Shown here: piece by piece, positions 223-59,731 of the stretch
How the letters are laid out: each line of letters starts with the position of its first letter
Numbering within the stretch: position 1 is the stretch's first letter
NCBI GenBank assembly: GCA_030445745.1
Contig: JASUTE010000001.1
Span: 1 to 64,000 of the forward strand
From: Candidatus Cloacimonadota bacterium
GTDB taxonomy: Bacteria; Cloacimonadota; Cloacimonadia; Cloacimonadales; TCS61
Direction: 5' to 3'
Length of the DNA stretch: 64,000 nucleotides
Program-made: the position numbers and the translations under genes
Notes under the pieces: generated by a model
The model's database searches: none
The model's input: only the letters and a program-made list of their open reading frames with translations
Told to the model about the DNA's origin: nothing

Positions 223-393
223 ATTTTTACAATTCAGCTTGACTCATTTTAATTTATTGTTTAAATGTAATAATAGAAAAATAATTTATTGGTTAGGTAG
301 TAGTCAAGATGATTTTAGTGATTATAATTTATTTATTATTAATGTGTTATGAAATATAAAGAAGCTTAATCTAGATAATTAAACGGAGGTTAT

Positions 394-1092
394 ATGAAAA
401 AAGACGCGACAGCTAAAATAGCTAAATTAATGCAGTATTTCTTTATTTTATTAACAATTTTAGCCATTATCATCAGCGTGATTTATGCTCAGTGGGAAAA
501 CTTATTGAGTGCTTTTATGACCCTCATATTATTTTTAATTCCAAATATGTTTTATAAGCGTACTAACTTGGTAATTCCGCCCATATTTAAAATAATAATT
601 TTAATTTTTATTTTTGCTTCAATGTATCTGGGAGAAATACACAGCTTCTTCTATCGCATTCGCTGGTGGGACGTAATAATGCATTCAACATCTGGTATGC
701 TATTAGGTTATATAGGTTTTCTTATAATCTATGCTTTAAATAAAGGCAAGAATATAAAAGTAAAACTTAGTCCCGTCTTTATAGCTATTTTCTCATTTTC
801 ATTTGCCGTTTCTATTGGTGTTATTTGGGAAATATTTGAATTTGGAGTAGATAGTATTCTGAATATGAATATGCAAAAAGCAAGAAATTTACAAGAAGTT
901 TACAACTATTTCGATACTAGGTTGGGGGTTATAGATACCATGCGTGATCTTATCGTTAATGCTATTAGTGCTTGCTTCATATCCATTATCGGTTTCTTTT
1001 ATAGTAAAAAAAAGCTAAAAAAAGATAGTTCTTTTGCCAAGTTGACCGAAGAGTTTGTAGAGAACAATCCTAAATTGTTCTCATTGGATTAA
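394..1092 (+). CDS. YjdF/DUF2238-like integral membrane protein
   Basis: This 232-residue protein has about six hydrophobic membrane segments, near residues 12-30, 34-50, 65-80, 95-112, 128-148 and 183-203. Between them lie conserved-looking polar motifs: RWWDVIMH, VIWEIFEFG and DTMRDLIVN. This set (D/H, WE..E, DT..D) recalls the YjdF/DUF2238 family of membrane proteins, whose biochemical role I do not know. The start is supported by GGAGG seven bases upstream. The gene stands alone and runs into a strong terminator shared with the convergent thioredoxin gene. The C-terminal 35 residues are charged and probably cytoplasmic. Confidence 0.6.
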   Translation: MKKDATAKIAKLMQYFFILLTILAIIISVIYAQWENLLSAFMTLILFLIPNMFYKRTNLVIPPIFKIIILIFIFASMYLGEIHSFFYRIRWWDVIMHSTSGMLLGYIGFLIIYALNKGKNIKVKLSPVFIAIFSFSFAVSIGVIWEIFEFGVDSILNMNMQKARNLQEVYNYFDTRLGVIDTMRDLIVNAISACFISIIGFFYSKKKLKKDSSFAKLTEEFVENNPKLFSLD

Positions 1093-1126
1093 TCTGTCTA
1101 TACCTTGAATTTAGCTTTATTTAAGA

Positions 1127-1162
1127 AAAATTGGAGCAAGATATCATTCTTGCTCCAATTTT
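1127..1162. terminator. bidirectional rho-independent terminator
   Basis: A perfect 15-bp stem (1127-1141 with 1148-1162) encloses a 6-base loop. The stem has an A-run on one side and a T-run on the other, so it can stop transcription from both sides. It lies between the convergent membrane-protein gene and the thioredoxin gene. Confidence 0.9.
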
Positions 1163-1185
1163 ATTTCACTTATAAGCTGGGAGAA

Positions 1186-1539
1186 TTAATTTATTTTTAG
1201 TATATCAGCTATTGCTTTTTTAAAAGATTCTTTCGGCAGAGCACCTGTAGCCATTTGTGGCTGCCCATCTTTGGGAATGAACAAGATAGAAGGGATAGAG
1301 CGAATTTGGAAAGCAGCCGCCAATTCCTGTTGTTCTTCGGTGTTAACTTTGTAAATATTTAATTTACCATTGTATTCTTTGGCTAAATCTTCCAAAACAG
1401 GTGCTACCATTTTGCAGGGACCACACCAGTCGGCATAAAAATCGATTATAGCTGGCAAATCACCTTCGAATTTCCAATCTTTATTTTTTTCATAGTTAAA
1501 TATCTTCTCCTTGAAAGTTTCTGTTGTCAAATGTTCCAT
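1186..1539 (-). CDS. trxA: thioredoxin
   Basis: A 117-residue cytoplasmic thioredoxin that reduces protein disulfides. It carries the WCGPC active site (Cys39, Cys42) after DFYAD, the buried K/M-V-A-P segment, and the cis-proline loop SIPSILF. The open frame extends 32 codons upstream, but only the ATG at 1539 has a ribosome binding site (AAGGAG, about 7 bases away). The upstream extension lacks thioredoxin similarity, so I chose the shorter form. The N-terminus has about ten residues more than E. coli TrxA between the first strand and the active-site helix. The gene is monocistronic and divergent from the cysteine desulfurase gene. Confidence 0.93.
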   Translation of the reverse strand: MEHLTTETFKEKIFNYEKNKDWKFEGDLPAIIDFYADWCGPCKMVAPVLEDLAKEYNGKLNIYKVNTEEQQELAAAFQIRSIPSILFIPKDGQPQMATGALPKESFKKAIADILKIN

Positions 1540-1671
1540 TGTTTTACTCCTTATCATTTTTGTAATTAATATAAGGCAATCTTTCACAATGTCAAATTGT
1601 AGTTTTTTGTTTTCATTAAAAAACTTGCCAATCAACCAATCAGTTCCAATTTTAGTTATAAAGGAAAATAT

Positions 1672-2838
1672 ATGATATATTTAGATTATAACGCGACCAC
1701 ACCTTTAGCGCCAGAGGCTGCAACTGCCATGCAACCTTATTTGGGAAAAATTTATGGCAACCCTTCCAGCTTGCATGCTTACGGCCAGCAAATGCGTTTA
1801 GCATTAGGAAAAGCACGCCAGCAAGTAGCAAATTTGCTTAACTGTTATCCTTCACAGATAATTTTTACTAGCGGTGGTACCGAAAGTAATAATCTGGCAC
1901 TAATTGGCTATACTTTAGCCAATCGCAGGGAAGGGAATCATATCATAACTAGTCAAATCGAGCACCCAGCAATTTTAAATGTTTGTTCCTACTTGGAAAC
2001 CAGAGGCTTCCAGATAAGTTATCTACCAGTTAACCATGCAGGTCAGGTAGAACCAGAAACATTAAGAAAAGCCATACAACCAAATACAATTTTGGTTTCC
2101 ATAATGCATGCCAATAACGAAACGGGAGCAATTCAACCGATTTCTCAGTTAGTTGAAATTGCCCATGCCAATAATGCCGTTTTTCATACAGATGCCGCCC
2201 AAAGTTGTGGGAAAATTGCAGTTGATGTGCAAAAAATGAAAGTAGACATGCTTTCCATGGCCGGACATAAATTGTATGGTCCGACTGGTTGTGGTGCCTT
2301 GTTCGTAGCTTCCCATATAAAACTGCAAAACATACTTTTTGGAGCAGGACAAGAACTGGGTTTACGTCCCGGCACAGAAAATGTTGTCTCGATAGTGGGG
2401 CTGGGAGTTGCTTGCAAGATTGCAACCGAAAAATTAACCGAAAACAACAACTGGTTACTGAAATGTTCTGATAGATTTTACCAGCTAATAAAAGAAGCCT
2501 ACCCTGATGTAAGATTAAACGGCAGCTGGCAAGATAAACTACCCAACACCTTGAATCTAAGTTTTCCAGGTTGGCAAGCGCAAGAATTATTGGAACAGAT
2601 TCCGCAAGTAGCTGCTTCTGCTGGCTCTGCCTGCCATAGTGGACAAGATACTATCTCACCCGTACTAGCTGCTTTGGGAATAGAGCTCAAACAGGCACAG
2701 GGCAGTATTCGCTTTTCTACTGGACGTTTTACCACTTTAGAAGAGATAGACTTAGCTGCAAAACTAATAATAAAAGCTTTACAAAAGAAACCCATTTCTC
2801 AAAATTCTGTAAACGAAACGAATTTAGGGGAGACATAA
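1672..2838 (+). CDS. cysteine desulfurase (NifS/IscS family)
   Basis: This PLP enzyme (388 residues, the usual length) takes sulfur from L-cysteine for Fe-S clusters, thiolated tRNA or other acceptors. The schiff-base lysine is Lys200 in SMAGHKLYG. His98 (IEHPA) and Asp174 (HTDAAQ) line the cofactor pocket. The sulfur-carrying loop reads SAGSACHSG, with Cys321. The start is the ATG after AAGGAAAATAT. No iscU or iscR lies next to it, so its acceptor is unclear; the demand of the hydrogenase and the many Fe-S proteins in this window is an obvious use. A small membrane protein gene follows 3 bases later. Confidence 0.93.
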   Translation: MIYLDYNATTPLAPEAATAMQPYLGKIYGNPSSLHAYGQQMRLALGKARQQVANLLNCYPSQIIFTSGGTESNNLALIGYTLANRREGNHIITSQIEHPAILNVCSYLETRGFQISYLPVNHAGQVEPETLRKAIQPNTILVSIMHANNETGAIQPISQLVEIAHANNAVFHTDAAQSCGKIAVDVQKMKVDMLSMAGHKLYGPTGCGALFVASHIKLQNILFGAGQELGLRPGTENVVSIVGLGVACKIATEKLTENNNWLLKCSDRFYQLIKEAYPDVRLNGSWQDKLPNTLNLSFPGWQAQELLEQIPQVAASAGSACHSGQDTISPVLAALGIELKQAQGSIRFSTGRFTTLEEIDLAAKLIIKALQKKPISQNSVNETNLGET

Positions 2839-2841
2839 ATT

Positions 2842-3093
2842 ATGCCGATTATGATTTTCAATATTTTCCTATGTGCCCTCGTTTCGCTTTGGGGAATTAT
2901 AGTGTATGTCTGTAAGAAAGAACAGCTCGGTAAGCTCATAGCGATATCTTTTTTGCTATTTGGAATCTCACATCTACTTAACATATTAGATTACGATACC
3001 ACTATGGTTGGATTTGTTTTTATAGTAGTAATCAGAAGCATCGCTTATTTGTTTATTGTTTTTGGATTAGATAAATTATTACGGAAAAAATAA
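2842..3093 (+). CDS. small three-helix membrane protein, function unknown
   Basis: This 83-residue protein has three hydrophobic stretches (about 3-23, 32-48, 56-78), short polar linkers and a basic C-terminal tail (LLRKK). I do not recognise a family. It starts 3 bases after the cysteine desulfurase stop and ends 15 bases before the malic enzyme gene, so it is probably in one operon with both. There is a GGGGAG-like sequence ahead of the start. It has no Cys or His motif, so it is unlikely to be a metal or Fe-S carrier. Confidence 0.6.
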   Translation: MPIMIFNIFLCALVSLWGIIVYVCKKEQLGKLIAISFLLFGISHLLNILDYDTTMVGFVFIVVIRSIAYLFIVFGLDKLLRKK

Positions 3094-39249: not shown

Positions 39250-39739
39250 ATTGATGTATATGAATATCTTGCTATGGAAATGGTATAGAGATATTTTCTT
39301 GGCTAAAACGTTTTTTTATTTTTCCATGAAGCTCGAAAGGTAATGTCCAGTAGTCATTGGTTTTCACCCAGAGGCGAACCACAAAATTTATATTGCTATC
39401 AGCCAATTCGGTAACTCCCACAGTTGGTTTAGGGTTTTTAATATGCGTTCATCTTCTTGCAATATTTGCCACAAGGTTTTCTTCACCTTATCCAGATCGT
39501 CGGAATAACTAACTCCCACCACCATATTCAGCCGGCGGGTTTCGTTAGCGGTAAAATTGGTAATATTGTCGTTGATAAGTTTGGAATTTGGCACTATTAT
39601 TTTGCGGTTATCAGGTATTTTCACTCACTGCAAGTCTTTACTAAGCCACCAAGCCCACTTTAAATTTAAAATAAATTTCTAAGTTTAGAGATTTCTTGTA
39701 AAATTCCAAAATTTTCTCCACCTCCGGCGCTGTGCTCAT
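39250..39739 (-). pseudogene. MscS-family mechanosensitive channel, internally deleted
   Basis: A start at 39739 gives MSTAPEVEKILEFYKKSLNL and loses the frame after about 30 codons. Then IPDNRKIIVPNSKLINDNIT and ETRRLNMVVGVSYSDDLDKV appear, the beta domain of MscS, up to ILQEDERIL. After one more frameshift PTVGVTELADSNINF and VRLWVKTNDYW continue to the family's end. The whole pore region is missing. Upstream, 39740-39832 holds only a G-rich stretch and no gene. Confidence 0.8.
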
Positions 39740-39832: not shown

Positions 39833-40324
39833 TTAAAAGATATTCTCATTTTTAAGTGAAAAATATCTATGGGTTTGCTTAAAATTTTTGATAAGCTGAT
39901 AACAGGTAACAGAATCAAATGAAGTATCTTTTAAATATTTATTATCTCGTACTAAATTTTGAAAAGCTTCATTTGCATTTGATCCAGAAGAAAAACCTAT
40001 CACTTGACAATTTTCAATATCAGGTTCGATTGAAATAGAATAAGGTTGATATGTAAAGCCTTCAGTGGAAATAAAAATAAATTCTTTTATTTCATCATTT
40101 AATTTGGTATTGTTTTTATTAATAATTTCTGAAACAAAATTATAAGCATCATCTTCTATTATTTCAATTACTTCATCAAAAGGTATTGAGTATTTTGTCA
40201 TTTCTTGTTCGATTTTTTCATTAATATCTATTTTTAGAGTTTTAATATCATTTCCCCATACCAAAACAATTTTTTCCCTTTTTCTGCATTGGAAGAAATT
40301 ATTGACAGACATTAAACTATTCAT
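39833..40324 (-). CDS. unknown protein encoded beside the PLD nuclease
   Basis: A 163-residue soluble, acidic protein I do not recognise. Visible segments are IVLVWGNDIKTLKIDI, a middle IIEDDAYNFVSEIIN, the strand EFIFISTEG and the end QVIGFSSGSNANEAFQNLVR. There are no catalytic motifs. GGAGG lies 5 bases before the ATG. It is 34 bases downstream of the PLD nuclease gene on the same strand and shares its AT-rich, Asn/Ile-rich composition, so the two probably form one acquired unit. An immunity, sensing or partner role is only a guess. Confidence 0.6.
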   Translation of the reverse strand: MNSLMSVNNFFQCRKREKIVLVWGNDIKTLKIDINEKIEQEMTKYSIPFDEVIEIIEDDAYNFVSEIINKNNTKLNDEIKEFIFISTEGFTYQPYSISIEPDIENCQVIGFSSGSNANEAFQNLVRDNKYLKDTSFDSVTCYQLIKNFKQTHRYFSLKNENIF

Positions 40325-40358
40325 TATCCTCCATCCTAACTATTTATATATTCATTTT

Positions 40359-41165
40359 TTAACTATTATGTATAAACCACAGTTTTCGATAAACTCCATT
40401 ACCTAAAAATTCTAGTAATCCTAGATCTCTTAATTTTTGAAGTTGTTGCCTAATTTTATCTAAAATGTGATGATTATTTGGATAAATGGTTTTCAAATGA
40501 TTTTCATATTTGTTAATATCTTGAAGACTAAAGATGTTTTTGGGAATTTGCTCAAGACATTTAAAAATTTCTAACTTCCAACCTCTCAATGTTGATGAAA
40601 TAAGTTCATCCGGTAAATCAATGATATCAAAATTATCTTCAGGGTTATCTATGTTTATTCTTGGTATTCTGATTTTTTTTATTTTGGGCATTTTTGATAA
40701 TAATTGACGTACTTCAGCAATATTTTTTTCGCTAATTACTCCGATATTTTCATTGTTAAATAAGGTTTCAAAATCATTTTTAACTATCCCAACAGTTTTA
40801 ATGTTATCAAAATATATGCCATATTCGAAATTATTTAATAGACCACCATTTGTTAAATTTGAAGAAGATATGATTGCTTTTTTATCATCAAAAATAAATA
40901 TTTTAGAGTGTATTCTAGATAGGTTTCTTACATTCCCATTTGATTTTAATATTTTTTCTAAACCTCCAATATCTAATGATCCCGAATATATATTCATTAA
41001 TTTAAAAGAAGTTATTAAGTCCAATCTTACATTTTTCTTTTTTATATTCAAGATATCATCACATATATTTTCTTTTACAAATGGGGAAGTGATCTTAATT
41101 GTCTTTTCCGTTTGTTGTACTAAATTGAGAAATTCTTTTTTCCAGGGAGTTTTAATAACTTTCAT
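40359..41165 (-). CDS. PLD-family nuclease with DpnI_C-like winged helix
   Basis: A 268-residue protein with two parts. Residues ~10-130 are a phospholipase-D fold with one intact HKD motif: His86, Lys88 and Asp93 in RIHSKIFIFDD, followed by SSSNLTNGG (Asn103) and Glu114. Single-motif PLD nucleases such as BfiI and Nuc dimerise to form the active site. Residues ~198-265 (FSLQDINKYENHL, TIYPNNHHI, KIRQQLQKLRDLGLLEFLG) match the winged helix at the C-terminus of DpnI/Dam-replacing enzymes, which reads methylated DNA. No methyltransferase gene is near. A modification-dependent or defence nuclease is the likely role. Not secreted. Confidence 0.75.
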   Translation of the reverse strand: MKVIKTPWKKEFLNLVQQTEKTIKITSPFVKENICDDILNIKKKNVRLDLITSFKLMNIYSGSLDIGGLEKILKSNGNVRNLSRIHSKIFIFDDKKAIISSSNLTNGGLLNNFEYGIYFDNIKTVGIVKNDFETLFNNENIGVISEKNIAEVRQLLSKMPKIKKIRIPRINIDNPEDNFDIIDLPDELISSTLRGWKLEIFKCLEQIPKNIFSLQDINKYENHLKTIYPNNHHILDKIRQQLQKLRDLGLLEFLGNGVYRKLWFIHNS

Positions 41166-41261
41166 AAATAATCCATTTTATTTTTATTTAAAATTCTGCA
41201 ATAAATCCACGACTGTCAAGCATAAAATTATTAACTAACGTAAATTATTTCTATAAACACA

Positions 41262-41287
41262 AAGGGAGCACCTCACGATGCTCCCTT
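41262..41287. terminator. terminator of the carboxyltransferase operon
   Basis: AAGGGAGCA pairs with TGCTCCCTT around an 8-base loop, 26 bases behind the biotin-subunit stop. T-rich sequence lies on both sides (TTTGTGTTT on the minus strand). Confidence 0.75.
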
Positions 41288-41312
41288 CTCTTTTCTATAT
41301 TTTCTCTTTTAT

Positions 41313-52232: not shown

Positions 52233-52379
52233 ATGAAGTATGTAAAGAATGAGAGTTTCGCAAAAAAATTTAATGGGGAAAATTATTTTCGAAATTTTGG
52301 CAATTATGAGAAGTTTACTATCGCAAAATGGACAATGACAATTAACAAAAAATCAAAAATGAAGGAGAAACAATTATGA
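52233..52379 (+). CDS. possible 48-residue leader ORF
   Basis: GAAGGATTTTATATG begins a frame reading MKYVKNESFAKKFNGENYF that runs to a TGA overlapping the ATG of the giant gene by 4 bases (ATGA). The peptide is basic and aromatic and resembles no family. The overlap could couple its translation to the 2451-codon gene. A chance frame in AT-rich DNA is the plain alternative. Confidence 0.25.
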   Translation: MKYVKNESFAKKFNGENYFRNFGNYEKFTIAKWTMTINKKSKMKEKQL

Positions 52380-55300
52380 GAAAGGGAATCCTTATTTTAT
52401 TAGTTTCCTTACTACTTGTGAGTATAGCTTGGGCTGCTCCAGAAAAAACAAGAGAGCCCGGCCACACACCTATACCTCAAGAGCGTTTAGATGCACAAGC
52501 AAATGGGCTCACGTTCCAAGTTAGAGGTGATAGAGCACAAGATATAACAATTGAACTTACAGTGGACACTTGGTATGGTGAAGCTTCTTGGAACCTTTAT
52601 AGCTATGTAGAAGGTGCATACTATTATGCCGAAAACCAAGAGTTTACTACTGGAGGAGAAACTGTAACAGAAATTTTATCCTTAGATGAAGGCGATTACT
52701 CAGTTGATTGCTTTGACACTTATGGAGATGGTGGTATAGCAGGAACAGTTTACGATGCAGAAGATAATGTATTGGTAAGCTGGGCAGATGATGCTTATTA
52801 TGACTTTGGTGAATTTCCATTTACCGTAGCTCCACCACCATTCGAATTTGTTGAAAATTTCGATGCTGGGATACCAGCTGAATGGGAAGTAACAGGCGAT
52901 CCTTCTTGGGTTGGTATGACCGAATATGGTTATGGCGCTAGCACCTTAGATGGAACTCCGTTTGCAATGATCGACAGTGATGATGCTGGTTCTGGAACTC
53001 ATGTAGTAGGAGATCTTATTTCTCCTGCTATGGATGTAACAGGTTACGACAGCATGATGTTGGAATTTGAACAATATTATAACAATATCTCTGCTGATGA
53101 AGTGGTAAACGTTCAAGTATGGGATGGAACCGCTTGGCAAGTTGTAGCTGAATTCACAGAAGATATGGGTGCTTGGGGCGCTCCAGATAACCAGGTTATC
53201 GATGTAACCGCTTATGCGAACACTGACTTTAAGGTTAAATTTCACTATGATGATGGTGATGCTTGGGCTTGGTACTGGGCTGTAGATAATGTAAAGGTTT
53301 ACAACCCTATAGCTGGTACCTTAGAAGGTTATGTTTATGCTTATGGCACAACTAACCCCATTGAAGGTGCTACAGTAACTTGTGGTGAAGTTTCAGCTAC
53401 CACGGATGCCACCGGCTTCTATACTTTAGAACCTAATGCTGGCAGCTATGAAGCTGTTGCTGATGCTGAAAATTATTTCCCAGCTACTGAAGCTGTAGAA
53501 ATTGTGACAAATGAAGTAACAACTCAGGACTTTGAACTTACCTGGGCCGAAATTGCTGTAGATCCAGCAGAAGTGAATGTGGAAGTTCCCGGTGGACTTA
53601 CCGAAGAAGCCACATTAACTATTTCTAACCCGGGTGGAACTGCGCCTCTTACATACAATGCTGGCTTTTTTGGAATATCGAAAAGAACTATAACCTTGAA
53701 AGAAACAAAAGAGAGAGGTGAAAACTACTCTGGTTTCTCTAAAACAGAACAGATTACTGTTCCCGATAACCGTGGTACCGGCTGGTATTCCTATTCTCCT
53801 ATTGATGACATGACCAGTCTTACCTGGGCAGCTCCTGAAAGAGCTACCTTCTTCCAGATGGCTGATTTTGGCATTCCTTATCCAGTAGAAATTACTAACC
53901 TTAGTCACTGGTTCTATGAACATTCTAGTTATCCTTGGGATAATGACCAGTTCAAATTCAAGATTTATGCTGCAGACGGCACAACCCTGCTTTATGAATC
54001 TGATAACTTGACAGCTGAACATTTGGTTGAATACAATTATACCCTTGAAGAACCATTAGTAGTAGAAGATGATTTCTGGGTAGCAATTGCTCCTATATCT
54101 GCAAGTGGATTTCCTTCTAGTACAGGAACCAATTTGTATGATGGCCATTCCTATGTTTGGAATCCAGGTACTAATGAATGGGAATTATACGCAGGTCTCG
54201 AATACACTACAGCTGTTGGTTTAAGCCAATGGTTGACAATAAGCAATGCCACAGGTACCATAGAACCAGGTGCTAGTGCAGAAATTACCCTGAATTTAGA
54301 TGCTGCAGGATTGGAAAATGTAACCAAAACAGGTGAAGTATTTATCCAGAACGATGCTTTATATCCGATGGATAAAGGTGAAGACTTCATAGTTCCTGTA
54401 ACTATGGAAGTTGGAGCTGCTGTTCCTATCTTTGAATTTGACTATACTACTACCGACTTTGGTTCAATTCCTATTGGAGCCACCGAAGGCCCTGAAACTT
54501 ATGGAATTCAAAATGTTGGTAGTGGAACTTTCGTAGTAGAAGAACTTACCATTACAGGTGACAATCAAGATGAGTTTATTCTAGATGATTCTCATGAATA
54601 TCCTCTGGAAATTGCACCTGGTGAAAGAATAAATGTAGATGTTTCATTTGCTCCTAATTCTATAGGAGACAAACAGGCATATCTTTTCGTTGTGAACGAC
54701 ATTGGCAGAGAAGTAGAAGTACTTGAATTCACTGGTAACGCTTATGTTCCCGATCTACCTGGTGCTCCTAGTAATCCAACACCTCAAAATGGTCTAGGTG
54801 ATGTTTCAGTGGAAACAGGCCTTAGCTGGGAAAATGGACCGGAAACAGTATCTATAGACTTATATTTTGACACTGTTAATCCACCACAAAATAAGGTGTT
54901 AGATAATGTTACAGCAGTAGAAAACTACGATCCGGGTACACTTGATTTTGAAACAACTTACTATTGGAAAGTTGTAGCTAGAAATATAACCGGTGAAACT
55001 CAAGGCGCAACTTGGTTCTTCATGACTAGTGACCCTGGTACTGGCCCCATGACATTCCTGGAAGAAAACTTCGATACAGGTATTCCAGCTGAATGGGAAA
55101 TAACAGGTGATGTAGCTCCTTGGCATGGTGCAACCGATTATAGTGGTAATACTTTAGATGGCACTCCTTTTGCTTTTGTAGATAGTGATGCAGCTGGTTC
55201 TGGTGGAGTACATGTAAATAGTGACCTTATCACTCCTCCACTCGATACTACAGCTGGGCTTACCGTAAAGCTTGAATTTGATCAGTATTACAATTATATC

Positions 55301-58300
55301 AGTACAAGTGAAGTAGTTAATGTTCAGGTTTGGGATGGAAGCGAATGGCAGATAATTCTGGATCTCACAGAAGATATGGGTGATTGGGGAGCTCCTGATC
55401 ATCAAGAAATTGATATCAGCGATTACTCTAACCAAGAACTGAAAGTGAAATTCCATTATGATGATGGCACATCTTGGGCTTGGTATTGGGCAGTTGATAA
55501 TGTAAAAGTTAACTCCGGTGCACAAATACCTGTATTTACAATTACACCAGCTGAACACGATTTCGGCTCTATTCCAGTTTATACCTGGGAAACCCAAGAA
55601 TTTGTGATTACAAATACTGGTGTTAATGATCTTATAGTTCAGGATTTGTCTGTAACAGGACCTGATGCTGAGCATTTTGAGTTAACCGATAATAATGAAT
55701 ATCCAGTAACTATTTCACCTGAGGATGCCGGTATTACAGTTGAAGTAAAATATGCACCAATGACTGCAGGCGAACATTCTGCTTTCTTAGGTGTATATAC
55801 CGGTGAAGATGCTGAAAATCAACACGTTATCGATATTGCTGGTAGCGCCTACATGCTTCCAGATGGTGATATCGCAGGAAATCCATTCCTAGTAGAATTC
55901 ACCGATGGCTTCTATACAGATAATAGTACCAATGACGGCTTTGAAGATAACTATGATCTACCAAGTAGCGATGGAGCTGATATTGTTTACCAATTCACAT
56001 TAGAAGAAGATACATATATGGATTCAATATCACTCTATGGTTCCGATTTCGACACTAAAATGGCTGTTTATGCTGATGGTGTAGTACCTGGCCCCGACAA
56101 TTATCTGTATTATAATGATGACAGAGCAATACAATCTGCTCTGTATGATATTCCACTGTTTGCTGGAACCTATAACGTTGTAGTTGATGGTTACGGTGGA
56201 GCAGTAGGAAATGTAGTATTCTCGATCGATATTGGTGATCCATTGCCAGCTCCTGTTGCAGCAACCAATCCAAGCCCGGAAAATGGTGCTGTAGAAGTAC
56301 CTGCTGATGGTACTATTCTCACCTGGGAAATTGGCGAATTCACCAAGTATGTAGATGTTTACTTTGGAACTACTTATCCCCCAGAATTAGTACTGGAAAA
56401 TGGTGATAGAATTACTGAGTATGATCCAGGAACACTTGAACCGAATCAGATCTATTTCTGGAAAATAGTTAGCAAGAATACCTCTGGATCAGCTGAAAGT
56501 GAACTATGGGGATTCACCTCTACTTTAACACCTCCAACCGGACTTGCTGCCGAAGTTATAGACTACGTTGATGTAGAATTAACTTGGGAAGGTCCCACCG
56601 GCGGCGGTGGCGGCGGCGGTGGCGGCGGAGGCTCCGGTGATGAATTCACCGAAGACTTCGAAGCTGGCCTACCTAGTGACTGGACAATAATTGATGCTGA
56701 CGGTGATTCCTATAATTGGGAATGGTCCAATACCTTTACCGCTCATAGTGGTGTAGGTGTTATGTACAGTGCTTCCTATCTTAATAATGTAGGTGTTCTT
56801 ACTCCAGATAACTATCTGATTACTCCACAAGTAGAAATTGGAGATAACTCAGAATTTAGTTTCTGGTATGTAGCACAAGACCCAAATTGGCCTGGTGATA
56901 GGGCATATATCAAGGTATCTACTACCGATACAAATCCTGCTTCTTTCACAGAAGAACTTGGATATGTAGAAGCTGGTCCTACCTATACACAAGCTACATT
57001 CGATATGAGCGATTTCTCTGGTGAAACAGTTTATATTGCTCTGGAACATACCGATTGCTCAGATTTCTTCTATATCAATGTAGATGATGTAGCCCTTACT
57101 AATGCTTCTAAAGTTAATAATACTGATGTAGCATATAACACACAGGTAAGCAATGTTGATCCACTGAAAGATGTACGTTTGAGCGAAGCTGAATTTGAAG
57201 CTAAGCTGGAAGCTTACACAGCAAGCCGCGATCGTGCTTTCATTGGTTACAATGTATATCGCGATGGCGAAATAATTGCTGAAAATGTTGCTGAAACATC
57301 TTACTATGATGAAGCAGTTGCTGTTGGTACTCATACCTATGAAGTAAGCGCTGTATATCATGAAGGTGAATCTGCACCTAGTGAACCGGTAGAAGCTCTT
57401 ATTCCTGGTATTGGAATGATCTACGGTACTGTTACCGATGAACATAGTGGTGCTACTATAAACGCAGCAGAGATTACAGCTGTTAATGTAGATGATGAAG
57501 AAATAGTTTATACTGCTACCAGCAATCTCCAGGGTAATTATGAAATACCAGAAGTACTGGAAGGTACCTACACAATTACCTGCGAAAAAGATGGATATCC
57601 TGATGAAGTAGAAACAGATATCTATGTTGGTCACGAAGATGAAGTTGAAGTAAACTTTACACCTAATAACTTTGGTCTACCGCCAACATTAACAGCAGAA
57701 TCTGGTGTAGATGAAGCGGTTCCACTACATGTAAGCCCATGGGGTGGTACTGAAGAATATACCCAGGCCTTCCACGATGGTGGATTTGAAAGTCAACTTG
57801 GTTGCGGTGGCGGATGTGCTCTGGGTGTACGCTTTACACCTGCAGGCTATCCCGCAGAACTTACACACATACAAGTTACCTTCCAGGGTGATGCTAACTG
57901 TACTGCTGGTATATTCAGTGTATACCTTGATCCTGAAGGTGCAGTTGCAGGGCCTCCATCAGCTCCAACAGCACCTGGTGATCCTTCTGCTGTTTGGGAA
58001 TCTGCACCTGGTTCTTATCCACCTGGTGTTTATGACCTCGATATTACCGATGTTACTATCGAAAGCGGTGACGTTTATGTAATGTTCTGGGAAAATAGCA
58101 GTGGCTTTGCCGGTGTTGCAAACGACTTACAGCAGAATCACATTGATCGTAACTGGGGCTATATAAGTTCTACCTGGACTACTATCTACGCAGCTGTAGG
58201 TGGAGATCCTACACTTACCGGTAACTTTGGTATGACTGCTACTTTCGTAGGTGCACCTGGTCAAGCAGTTGTGTATGAACAATCAACAGGTAATGGCGAT

Positions 58301-59731
58301 AATTCTTATAGCCAAGGCTTGAACTTAGCTGTACAAGAAGGTAAAGATATTTCCGATCGGATAAGACCAACTATAGCTGGTAATGTGGGTATAGTACCTG
58401 CAAACTTTGGCGATAGAATCGATGTAAATATTGTTACTGAAGAAGCTGACTATCGCGAAGTAACCGGTTATGAAATCTGGAGATCACTTGATGGTGAAGA
58501 CTTCGGTACGGCACCATATCATGTGATCGAAGGTAGTGGTCCTCAAGATTGGACAGACGAAGACGTAGTTAACGATACTCAGTATTGGTACTATGCAAAT
58601 GTTATTGAAGATGGCACAACTCCAGGAGACCCTTCCGAAATAGTTACTGCTACTCCTCATGACGGTGTTGCACCAGGACCAATTGAAGATTTCAACTACG
58701 TTGTTGATGTTCCTAACAAAACTGTAGACTTCTCTTGGGTAGATCCTTCCTTAAATGAAGATGGAACCCTTTGTGAAGACTTAGTTGGAATAGAAATCTA
58801 TCGTGATGGTAACCTTCTGATTACCATAGATCCTTGGGTAGGCTCCTTCCAGGATGTAGTTCCTGAAAATGCAGATTACACCTATGAATTCTATGCAATA
58901 GATGAAGTTCCTAACATGAGCGAACCTGTTGTGCGTACAATCTATGTAGATTACATCCTCTTCATGGAAGACTGGAGTAATCCAATGGATTGGACTTTAG
59001 CAGGTGCATATCAGAATAACTGGATAATTCCTTCAGAAACAAATAGCGCCGGTGGAGAAGCACCTGAAGCAGAATTTGACTGGCTGCCAGATTATGGCTC
59101 AGTAGATACTGCTTATCTGGTATCTCCAACCTTCAGCACCGCTGGTATGACCAATATGACAGGTCAGTTCAGACAATATCTTGACTGGTATTCTAACACA
59201 GTAACACTTGGTGTAGCTACTTCCAGTGATGGTGGTTCAACTTGGAATGATGCTTGGAGTCAAATTTACAGTGCAGATTCTGGCCCAGAAACAATTAACT
59301 TCGAAATTGATACACCAGATGTTGGTTCTAACAACTTCCAGATGTGCTGGTACATAGAAAGTGATCCTTGGGATATTATGAGTTGGTACATCGACGACCT
59401 TCGCGTTTCCTATGAAGGTGGAGGAGATTCCAACGATAATAACGACATTCCACTGGTTACTAAGCTGAGTGGCAACTATCCTAATCCATTCAACCCAGAA
59501 ACAACAATTAACTTCTCTACCAAAGAAGATGGAAATGTTAGAATTGATATCTATAACATCAAGGGTCAGAAAGTTAAGACTCTGGTTAATGAGCATATGA
59601 AGGCTGATAACCACAAAGTTGTTTGGACTGGTGAAGATAGTAATGGAAGACAAGTATCTAGCGGTGTTTACTTCTATAAGATGAAAGCCGGTAAATACAC
59701 TTCCACTAAGAAGATGATACTTATGAAATAA
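52376..59731 (+). CDS. giant secreted multidomain adhesin-like protein with type IX-like C-terminal sorting domain
   Basis: A 2451-residue exported protein. It has a signal peptide (ILILLVSLLLVSIAWAA), two near-identical MAM/choice-of-anchor-J domains (about 156-308 and 893-1046), and a carboxypeptidase-regulatory-like fold (about 316-390, GTLEGYVYAYGTTNPIEGAT). Choice-of-anchor-D/ASH segments follow (FGSIPIGATEG, DFGSIPVYTWE), with fibronectin-III-like linkers, a run of eleven Gly (1409-1419), a third anchor-J domain (~1420-1580) and another near 2190-2340. The last 88 residues (NYPNPFNPETTINFS, VRIDIYNIKGQKV, SSGVYFYKMKAG) are the sorting domain recognised by type IX secretion. GGAG precedes the ATG. 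It likely binds carbohydrate, protein or surfaces; no protease or lyase motif is visible. Highly acidic. Confidence 0.88.
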   Translation: MRKGILILLVSLLLVSIAWAAPEKTREPGHTPIPQERLDAQANGLTFQVRGDRAQDITIELTVDTWYGEASWNLYSYVEGAYYYAENQEFTTGGETVTEILSLDEGDYSVDCFDTYGDGGIAGTVYDAEDNVLVSWADDAYYDFGEFPFTVAPPPFEFVENFDAGIPAEWEVTGDPSWVGMTEYGYGASTLDGTPFAMIDSDDAGSGTHVVGDLISPAMDVTGYDSMMLEFEQYYNNISADEVVNVQVWDGTAWQVVAEFTEDMGAWGAPDNQVIDVTAYANTDFKVKFHYDDGDAWAWYWAVDNVKVYNPIAGTLEGYVYAYGTTNPIEGATVTCGEVSATTDATGFYTLEPNAGSYEAVADAENYFPATEAVEIVTNEVTTQDFELTWAEIAVDPAEVNVEVPGGLTEEATLTISNPGGTAPLTYNAGFFGISKRTITLKETKERGENYSGFSKTEQITVPDNRGTGWYSYSPIDDMTSLTWAAPERATFFQMADFGIPYPVEITNLSHWFYEHSSYPWDNDQFKFKIYAADGTTLLYESDNLTAEHLVEYNYTLEEPLVVEDDFWVAIAPISASGFPSSTGTNLYDGHSYVWNPGTNEWELYAGLEYTTAVGLSQWLTISNATGTIEPGASAEITLNLDAAGLENVTKTGEVFIQNDALYPMDKGEDFIVPVTMEVGAAVPIFEFDYTTTDFGSIPIGATEGPETYGIQNVGSGTFVVEELTITGDNQDEFILDDSHEYPLEIAPGERINVDVSFAPNSIGDKQAYLFVVNDIGREVEVLEFTGNAYVPDLPGAPSNPTPQNGLGDVSVETGLSWENGPETVSIDLYFDTVNPPQNKVLDNVTAVENYDPGTLDFETTYYWKVVARNITGETQGATWFFMTSDPGTGPMTFLEENFDTGIPAEWEITGDVAPWHGATDYSGNTLDGTPFAFVDSDAAGSGGVHVNSDLITPPLDTTAGLTVKLEFDQYYNYISTSEVVNVQVWDGSEWQIILDLTEDMGDWGAPDHQEIDISDYSNQELKVKFHYDDGTSWAWYWAVDNVKVNSGAQIPVFTITPAEHDFGSIPVYTWETQEFVITNTGVNDLIVQDLSVTGPDAEHFELTDNNEYPVTISPEDAGITVEVKYAPMTAGEHSAFLGVYTGEDAENQHVIDIAGSAYMLPDGDIAGNPFLVEFTDGFYTDNSTNDGFEDNYDLPSSDGADIVYQFTLEEDTYMDSISLYGSDFDTKMAVYADGVVPGPDNYLYYNDDRAIQSALYDIPLFAGTYNVVVDGYGGAVGNVVFSIDIGDPLPAPVAATNPSPENGAVEVPADGTILTWEIGEFTKYVDVYFGTTYPPELVLENGDRITEYDPGTLEPNQIYFWKIVSKNTSGSAESELWGFTSTLTPPTGLAAEVIDYVDVELTWEGPTGGGGGGGGGGGSGDEFTEDFEAGLPSDWTIIDADGDSYNWEWSNTFTAHSGVGVMYSASYLNNVGVLTPDNYLITPQVEIGDNSEFSFWYVAQDPNWPGDRAYIKVSTTDTNPASFTEELGYVEAGPTYTQATFDMSDFSGETVYIALEHTDCSDFFYINVDDVALTNASKVNNTDVAYNTQVSNVDPLKDVRLSEAEFEAKLEAYTASRDRAFIGYNVYRDGEIIAENVAETSYYDEAVAVGTHTYEVSAVYHEGESAPSEPVEALIPGIGMIYGTVTDEHSGATINAAEITAVNVDDEEIVYTATSNLQGNYEIPEVLEGTYTITCEKDGYPDEVETDIYVGHEDEVEVNFTPNNFGLPPTLTAESGVDEAVPLHVSPWGGTEEYTQAFHDGGFESQLGCGGGCALGVRFTPAGYPAELTHIQVTFQGDANCTAGIFSVYLDPEGAVAGPPSAPTAPGDPSAVWESAPGSYPPGVYDLDITDVTIESGDVYVMFWENSSGFAGVANDLQQNHIDRNWGYISSTWTTIYAAVGGDPTLTGNFGMTATFVGAPGQAVVYEQSTGNGDNSYSQGLNLAVQEGKDISDRIRPTIAGNVGIVPANFGDRIDVNIVTEEADYREVTGYEIWRSLDGEDFGTAPYHVIEGSGPQDWTDEDVVNDTQYWYYANVIEDGTTPGDPSEIVTATPHDGVAPGPIEDFNYVVDVPNKTVDFSWVDPSLNEDGTLCEDLVGIEIYRDGNLLITIDPWVGSFQDVVPENADYTYEFYAIDEVPNMSEPVVRTIYVDYILFMEDWSNPMDWTLAGAYQNNWIIPSETNSAGGEAPEAEFDWLPDYGSVDTAYLVSPTFSTAGMTNMTGQFRQYLDWYSNTVTLGVATSSDGGSTWNDAWSQIYSADSGPETINFEIDTPDVGSNNFQMCWYIESDPWDIMSWYIDDLRVSYEGGGDSNDNNDIPLVTKLSGNYPNPFNPETTINFSTKEDGNVRIDIYNIKGQKVKTLVNEHMKADNHKVVWTGEDSNGRQVSSGVYFYKMKAGKYTSTKKMILMK
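52841..53300 (+). repeat. internal anchor-J domain repeat, copy 1
   Basis: Encodes NFDAGIPAEWEVTGD to DDGDAWAWYWAVDNVKV. It is closely similar in protein and DNA to 55054-55513, about 2.2 kb downstream in the same gene, and points to an intragenic duplication. Confidence 0.85.
55054..55513 (+). repeat. internal anchor-J domain repeat, copy 2
   Basis: Encodes NFDTGIPAEWEITGD to DDGTSWAWYWAVDNVKV, the second copy of the domain at 52841-53300. Most differences lie at third codon positions or in the surface loop near the start. Confidence 0.85.

Follow-up and report, generated by a model that had tools for sequence, protein, structure and literature searches.

The gene pair described here, a nuclease joining a PLD domain to a DpnI-type winged helix (PLD-wH) and a small gene that follows it, is probably a stand-alone module that cuts G6mATC-methylated invading DNA, as judged from sequence comparison and predicted structure. 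The pair lies within the window, the 64,000-nucleotide stretch of a Candidatus Cloacimonadota contig that was analysed, and both open reading frames reported by the first-pass annotation (268 and 163 amino acids, reverse strand) were found where it had placed them (Table 1). That annotation had taken the fusion for an enzyme of a new build, which does not hold: Helbrecht et al. described PLD-wH fusions in 2024, with 27 predicted, two cloned and tested in vivo, and none purified (PMC11037411). The architecture is therefore no novelty, and the published results on its methylation dependence are mixed. CbaI fits Dam-dependent toxicity, and induction of Aba4572I, which adjoins a predicted CGATCG methyltransferase, was toxic to Dam- cells, with a weaker effect in Dam+ cells (PMC11037411), a Dam dependence opposite to that proposed for the window enzyme. 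Compared by architecture, both resemble the window nuclease in having the PLD domain N-terminal and the winged helix C-terminal, and enzymes of this kind are stand-alone or methyltransferase-adjacent, as in the loci compared here. Unlike here, the partner family and the exchange of nucleases within a cassette were not described for those fusions (PMC11037411).

Table 1. Features of the nuclease-partner locus (window positions).
Feature	Coordinates	Strand	Basis or remark
Partner gene, 163 aa	39833..40324	(-)	ORF; 34 bp 3' of nuclease gene, GGAGG ribosome-binding site in front
Partner conserved C-terminal domain, residues ~77-146, strand-strand-helix-strand	39887..40096	(-)	alignment of homologues
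PLD-wH nuclease gene	40359..41165	(-)	ORF, 268 aa; Pfam PLDc_2 + DpnI_C
PLD nuclease domain, residues 1-155 (about)	40701..41165	(-)	VIA-align
HKD motif H86-x-K88-x4-D93	40887..40910	(-)	invariant, 9 homologues
DpnI_C winged helix, residues 190-262	40380..40598	(-)	PF17726; fold match to DpnI 4kyw
Reader residues K237, R239, Q243	40437..40457	(-)	alignment to DpnI
Terminator-like hairpin separating nuclease gene from OadA-like gene	41261..41288	(-)	consensus match only
MscS-type channel gene remnant, 3' of pair	39272..39624	(-)	PF21082/PF00924 fragments, two frames

Pfam placed PLDc_2 at residues 14 to 135 of the nuclease (E 1.7e-14) and DpnI_C at residues 194 to 261 (E 1.5e-27; 96 bits, with the cut-off at 23). 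A phmmer search of PDB sequences matched residues 191 to 262 to DpnI (4esj, E 6.9e-17), and in the AlphaFold2 model of the nuclease (pLDDT 77.6) residues 190 to 262 were superposed by VIA-align on DpnI 4kyw with a Z score of 13.0, an rmsd of 1.5 Å over 71 residues and 51% identity. The DpnI_C-type domain proposed in the first-pass annotation was thus recovered in sequence and in structure. The single HKD motif that it had called intact is present, with H86, K88 and D93 all unchanged in the alignment. In the same model the PLD part (residues 1 to 155) gave VIA-align Z scores of 17.8 with SauUSI (7clg), 17.6 with NucT (6ehi) and 16.8 with Nuc (1byr), followed by 14.7 with BfiI (2c1l) and 14.2 with NgoAVII (4rct). 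No Pfam match to PF06044, the PD-(D/E)XK catalytic domain of the DpnI family, was found in the nuclease, which has a PLD fold in its place; nor did Pfam find a B3-like DNA-binding domain, the C-terminal domain being DpnI_C. The RE_NgoFVII profile covered the PLD part only and scored below its cut-off. DISARM DrmC was considered and rejected (its NCBIfam score was 34 bits, the cut-off being 133), and no DISARM genes lie beside the pair, whose neighbors are OadA-like, CsoR-like and metal ATPase genes.

The reader residues K237, R239 and Q243 align with K229, R231 and Q235 of DpnI, the importance of which was shown by mutation (cited in PMC10101028). R239 and Q243 are invariant in nine homologues, and K237 differs in one, L009 (L-numbers are labels of the compared loci). 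Two homologue pairs of the nuclease had dN/dS values of 0.074 and 0.157, which indicates purifying selection. The conservation of the DpnI reader residues supports as probable the earlier proposal of a modification-dependent restriction enzyme. DpnI and the DpnI-like enzymes (PF06044 plus PF17726; FcyTI) share the winged-helix reader and its K/R/Q residues with the window nuclease. However, the catalytic domain of DpnI is of the PD-(D/E)XK type with its own 6mA cleft, whereas that of the window nuclease is PLD, and DpnI cuts inside GATC, whereas PLD-wH enzymes are expected to cut outside it. BfiI and NgoAVII resemble the window nuclease in their single-HKD PLD domain and in the dimer and metal-independent chemistry expected of it. 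They carry a B3-like reader domain and cut unmodified sites beside methyltransferases; in contrast, the window nuclease has a winged-helix reader and no methyltransferase in its locus.

On this basis the pair would form a horizontally acquired, modification-dependent restriction module made up of the PLD-wH enzyme and a small conserved partner. The winged helix may bind fully methylated G6mATC of incoming DNA, as its conserved reader residues suggest, and would bring the PLD domain, which would cut nearby as a dimer because each chain has one HKD motif. As in other PLD enzymes, cutting would be expected to pass through a covalent phospho-histidine intermediate and to be metal-free. The host would be spared because it has no Dam/DpnM-type methyltransferase. 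Neither PF05869 nor DpnM-like genes were found in the host genome (99.3% complete), and no methyltransferase gene lies on the window's contig. Other methyltransferases exist in this genome on other contigs. The one strong D12 gene belongs to an IceA-type restriction-modification cluster and has no phmmer match to Dam or DpnM; the D12-containing cluster on contig C33 (L028:4602-8231) encodes a D12 methyltransferase, a 379-residue protein outside Pfam, an IceA-type HNH endonuclease and an N6_N4/D12-type methyltransferase. On contig C3 (L049:1513-2220), an N6_N4 methyltransferase gene covering positions 1 to 204 of 221 contains an internal TAA and adjoins a 378-residue protein, and this cluster looks like a damaged restriction-modification system. 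The observed/expected ratio of GATC in the window was 0.79, and those of CATG and GTAC were similar, so this value is uninformative.

The GC content of the pair was 0.247, compared to a mean of 0.388 (standard deviation, 0.039) for 1333-bp segments of the window; only 2 of 1254 segments were as low, which places the pair at the bottom of the GC range in the window. The MscS remnant next to it is a real pseudogene, in which the C terminus of the channel is split across two frames, and the pair was absent 3' of the OadA-like gene in same-family relatives wherever this flank was visible. These observations bear out the acquisition suggested earlier and point to a recent insertion, for which horizontal transfer into the locus is the simplest reading of the composition and flanks. 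The terminator-like hairpin that separates the nuclease gene from the OadA-like gene suggests that the pair probably forms a transcription unit of its own. Elsewhere in the window, positions 52376 to 59731 encode a 2451-residue protein with Cleaved_Adhesin, carboxypeptidase-regulatory and type IX secretion sorting domains, which suggests a host with type IX secretion.

Full-length nuclease homologues were found in Bacteroidota (seven, 51 to 57% identity) and in the host's own family (two, 36 to 38% identity), and a whole-genome search added two more, with 54% and 43% identity. Of the 124 genomes of the phylum, 3 had the PLD-wH gene, and Flavobacteriales had one full-length copy among 395 genomes. 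Viral contigs scanned with a profile of the family yielded no relative, and tblastn matches in plasmids and phages were limited to the winged-helix domain. This patchy distribution, the adjoining pseudogene and the strong AT-richness would also suit a decaying passenger gene with no current function in the host genome. We consider this very unlikely, as the reading frame is full length with every catalytic and reader residue present, a Shine-Dalgarno sequence stands in front of the partner gene, and homologue pairs are under strong purifying selection.

The partner had been described as unknown, and it indeed belongs to no family of Pfam, NCBIfam or PADLOC and matches no PDB sequence; however, it is no orphan. 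About 70 residues of its C terminus are conserved in six other PLD-wH loci, directly after the nuclease gene, and genes of the same family also directly follow three DpnI-like genes of Bacteroidota. Its start overlaps the nuclease stop in most homologues, and homologue pairs indicate that the gene is under purifying selection. AlphaFold2 gave a pLDDT of about 56 to 86 for residues 81 to 140 and low values for the remainder, and Foldseek with this poor model found no PDB match. The 76-residue N-terminal extension of the partner (positions 40097 to 40324) is absent from every homologue and has low model confidence. DpnD/PcfM (PF14207) is a small protein encoded directly after the DpnI-type gene, with a strand-strand-helix-strand order similar to that of the partner, and true PF14207 proteins occupy the partner slot of L012 and L013. 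In contrast, the partner has no Pfam match to PF14207 and carries the extra N terminus; hhalign gave a probability of 0.3% between the two, from alignments of only 7 and 2 sequences. A literature search on DpnD function returned nothing useful. The slot is empty in L046 and holds unrelated short open reading frames in L045 and L015. At L066:1290-1493, a partner-family gene persists beside a frameshifted DpnI_C remnant.

A conserved, selected short gene whose start overlaps the nuclease stop could be the antidote of a toxin-antitoxin-like abortive module, and PLD-wH proteins were toxic when expressed without a partner (PMC11037411). This reading is hardly probable: the partner is missing from L046 and replaced by unrelated frames or by DpnD in four other loci, and its retention beside the relic in L066 shows that loss of the toxin does not entail loss of the partner.

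The four Flavobacteriales sequences that matched in the winged helix only are DpnI-like genes; the two that were checked matched PF06044 with E values of 4e-82 to 3e-86. Genes of this type and PLD-wH genes share their surroundings in Bacteroidota. L054, L055 and L057 have the order D12 methyltransferase (almost complete in L055, reduced to a scar in L054, or none), DpnI-like gene, partner-family gene, convergent PF05869 gene and N6_N4 methyltransferase (M2), the last lacking the DPPY motif in all three. L009, L010, L011 and L014 have the PLD-wH gene, a gene of the same partner family and the convergent PF05869 gene. The PLD-wH cassette L011 shares 76% identity in the partner and 77% in PF05869 with the DpnI cassette L055, compared to 79% and 86% with the PLD cassette L010 and 57% and 71% with L009. 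The winged helices, however, group by nuclease type, with 51 to 64% identity between types in Bacteroidota. Whole nuclease genes, and not domains alone, thus seem to take each other's place in a single slot, with the partner serving both, and the module probably originated from such a Dpn-like Bacteroidota cassette. The winged helix is the feature common to both nuclease types, and for this reason the partner might have the helix or gene expression as its target, perhaps restraining the nuclease.

The convergent Dam-like PF05869 gene is conserved beside nucleases expected to cut G6mATC (L009, L010, L011, L014 and L054 to L057). Whichever nuclease type the cassette holds, the gene is nearly always full length; it is under purifying selection (dN/dS 0.12), and its product shares 35% identity with M.Phi93DAM, for which G6mATC methylation is proven (PMC4190342). 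This leaves two options: a different target for the PF05869 protein, or a separation in time of nuclease and methylase.

The first-pass annotation had pointed to the lack of a nearby methyltransferase, and to homologues always standing next to a cognate one as an argument against its proposal. The lack holds for the window copy and three others (L038, L039 and L046 are stand-alone), but not in general, as a methyltransferase gene, mostly of the adenine type, adjoins the PLD-wH gene in 7 of the 11 other loci, and the counter-argument thus applies in part; the neighborhood of L015 stops at a contig end. The state of these genes differs. In L009 (D12, PLD-wH, partner, PF05869, M2), the D12 gene lacks about 49 C-terminal codons and ends where the intact PLD-wH gene starts, M2 has in-frame stops, and the PF05869 motif is TPPY rather than NPPY, so that all three methyltransferases look inactive. 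L038 retains a 16-residue scar of a D12 N terminus 200 bp upstream of PLD-wH. Single stops or truncations in contigs of metagenome-assembled genomes could be assembly errors, whereas the methyltransferase damage in L009 and in Flavobacteriales consists of several separate lesions; the M2 truncations of L054 and L057, however, seem to go back to a single event. L013 has an intact C5 methyltransferase, PLD-wH and DpnD, and L045 an intact N6_N4 methyltransferase and PLD-wH. L012 (positions 224 to 3004) is an operon of a DpnM-like D12 methyltransferase, PLD-wH, DpnD and a CcrM-like N6_N4 methyltransferase, all intact. The best PDB match of its D12 protein (324 residues) is DpnM, with 179 bits versus 120 for Escherichia coli Dam, and its reader helix is near-identical to that of the window nuclease. 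A 6mA-dependent PLD-wH enzyme would therefore restrict its own host there, and L012 conflicts with a purely 6mA-dependent nuclease. No column of the reader helix discriminated between methyltransferase-linked and stand-alone members.

These neighbors raise the alternative of an ordinary type II enzyme with unmodified GATC-containing sites as its targets and the cassette methyltransferases as its protection, the window copy being an orphan that lost them and is silent, weak or partner-restrained. We consider this rather unlikely. It would account for the frequent adjacency, the intact methyltransferases of L012 and L013, and the behavior of Aba4572I beside its predicted methyltransferase (PMC11037411). 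A plasmid C5 methyltransferase 46% identical to that of L013 co-occurs with a BglII/BstYI-family enzyme (GATC-core sites), which also favors it. However, intact stand-alone copies occur in four genomes without a DpnM-like methyltransferase, and in L009 the nuclease has outlasted methyltransferases that look inactive. Adjacency is moreover no proof, as L055 carries its D12 gene beside a DpnI-like gene, and the characterized DpnI-like enzymes are 6mA-dependent. Adjacency alone as a mark of type II restriction-modification was rejected, as DpnI-like genes share the neighborhood and many of the methyltransferases are broken.

Cutting of unmethylated GATC would harm the hosts of the window, L038, L039, L046 and L009 copies. 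Dead or absent methyltransferases beside an intact nuclease therefore argue for the methylation-dependent cutting that we prefer, as a cutter of unmethylated DNA could not persist there. Copies without working methyltransferases outnumber the contrary case of L012. Against 6mA dependence stand the L012 operon, the intact methyltransferases of L013 and L045, the selected PF05869 neighbor and the mixed published data on Aba4572I (PMC11037411). A further, improbable conjecture is that within one Dpn-like cassette the winged-helix nuclease switches polarity between methylated DNA (window, L009, L046) and unmethylated DNA (L012, Aba4572I), with the partner and PF05869 setting or gating the polarity. 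If true, one locus could house both a GATC methylase and a nuclease that reads G6mATC.

The interesting parts of this locus are the common cassette, the partner family and the question of polarity. No branch of the 6mA-reading restriction enzymes is less well understood than PLD-wH, and the methylation dependence of its members is disputed. The loci compared here provide intact natural nuclease-partner pairs, in which the partner may explain failed expression attempts, and they show PLD-wH and DpnI-like genes replacing each other in one cassette. With GATC-type methyltransferases that are intact, decayed or absent, the cassettes make up a natural series in which to ask whether a DpnI-type reader works in both directions.
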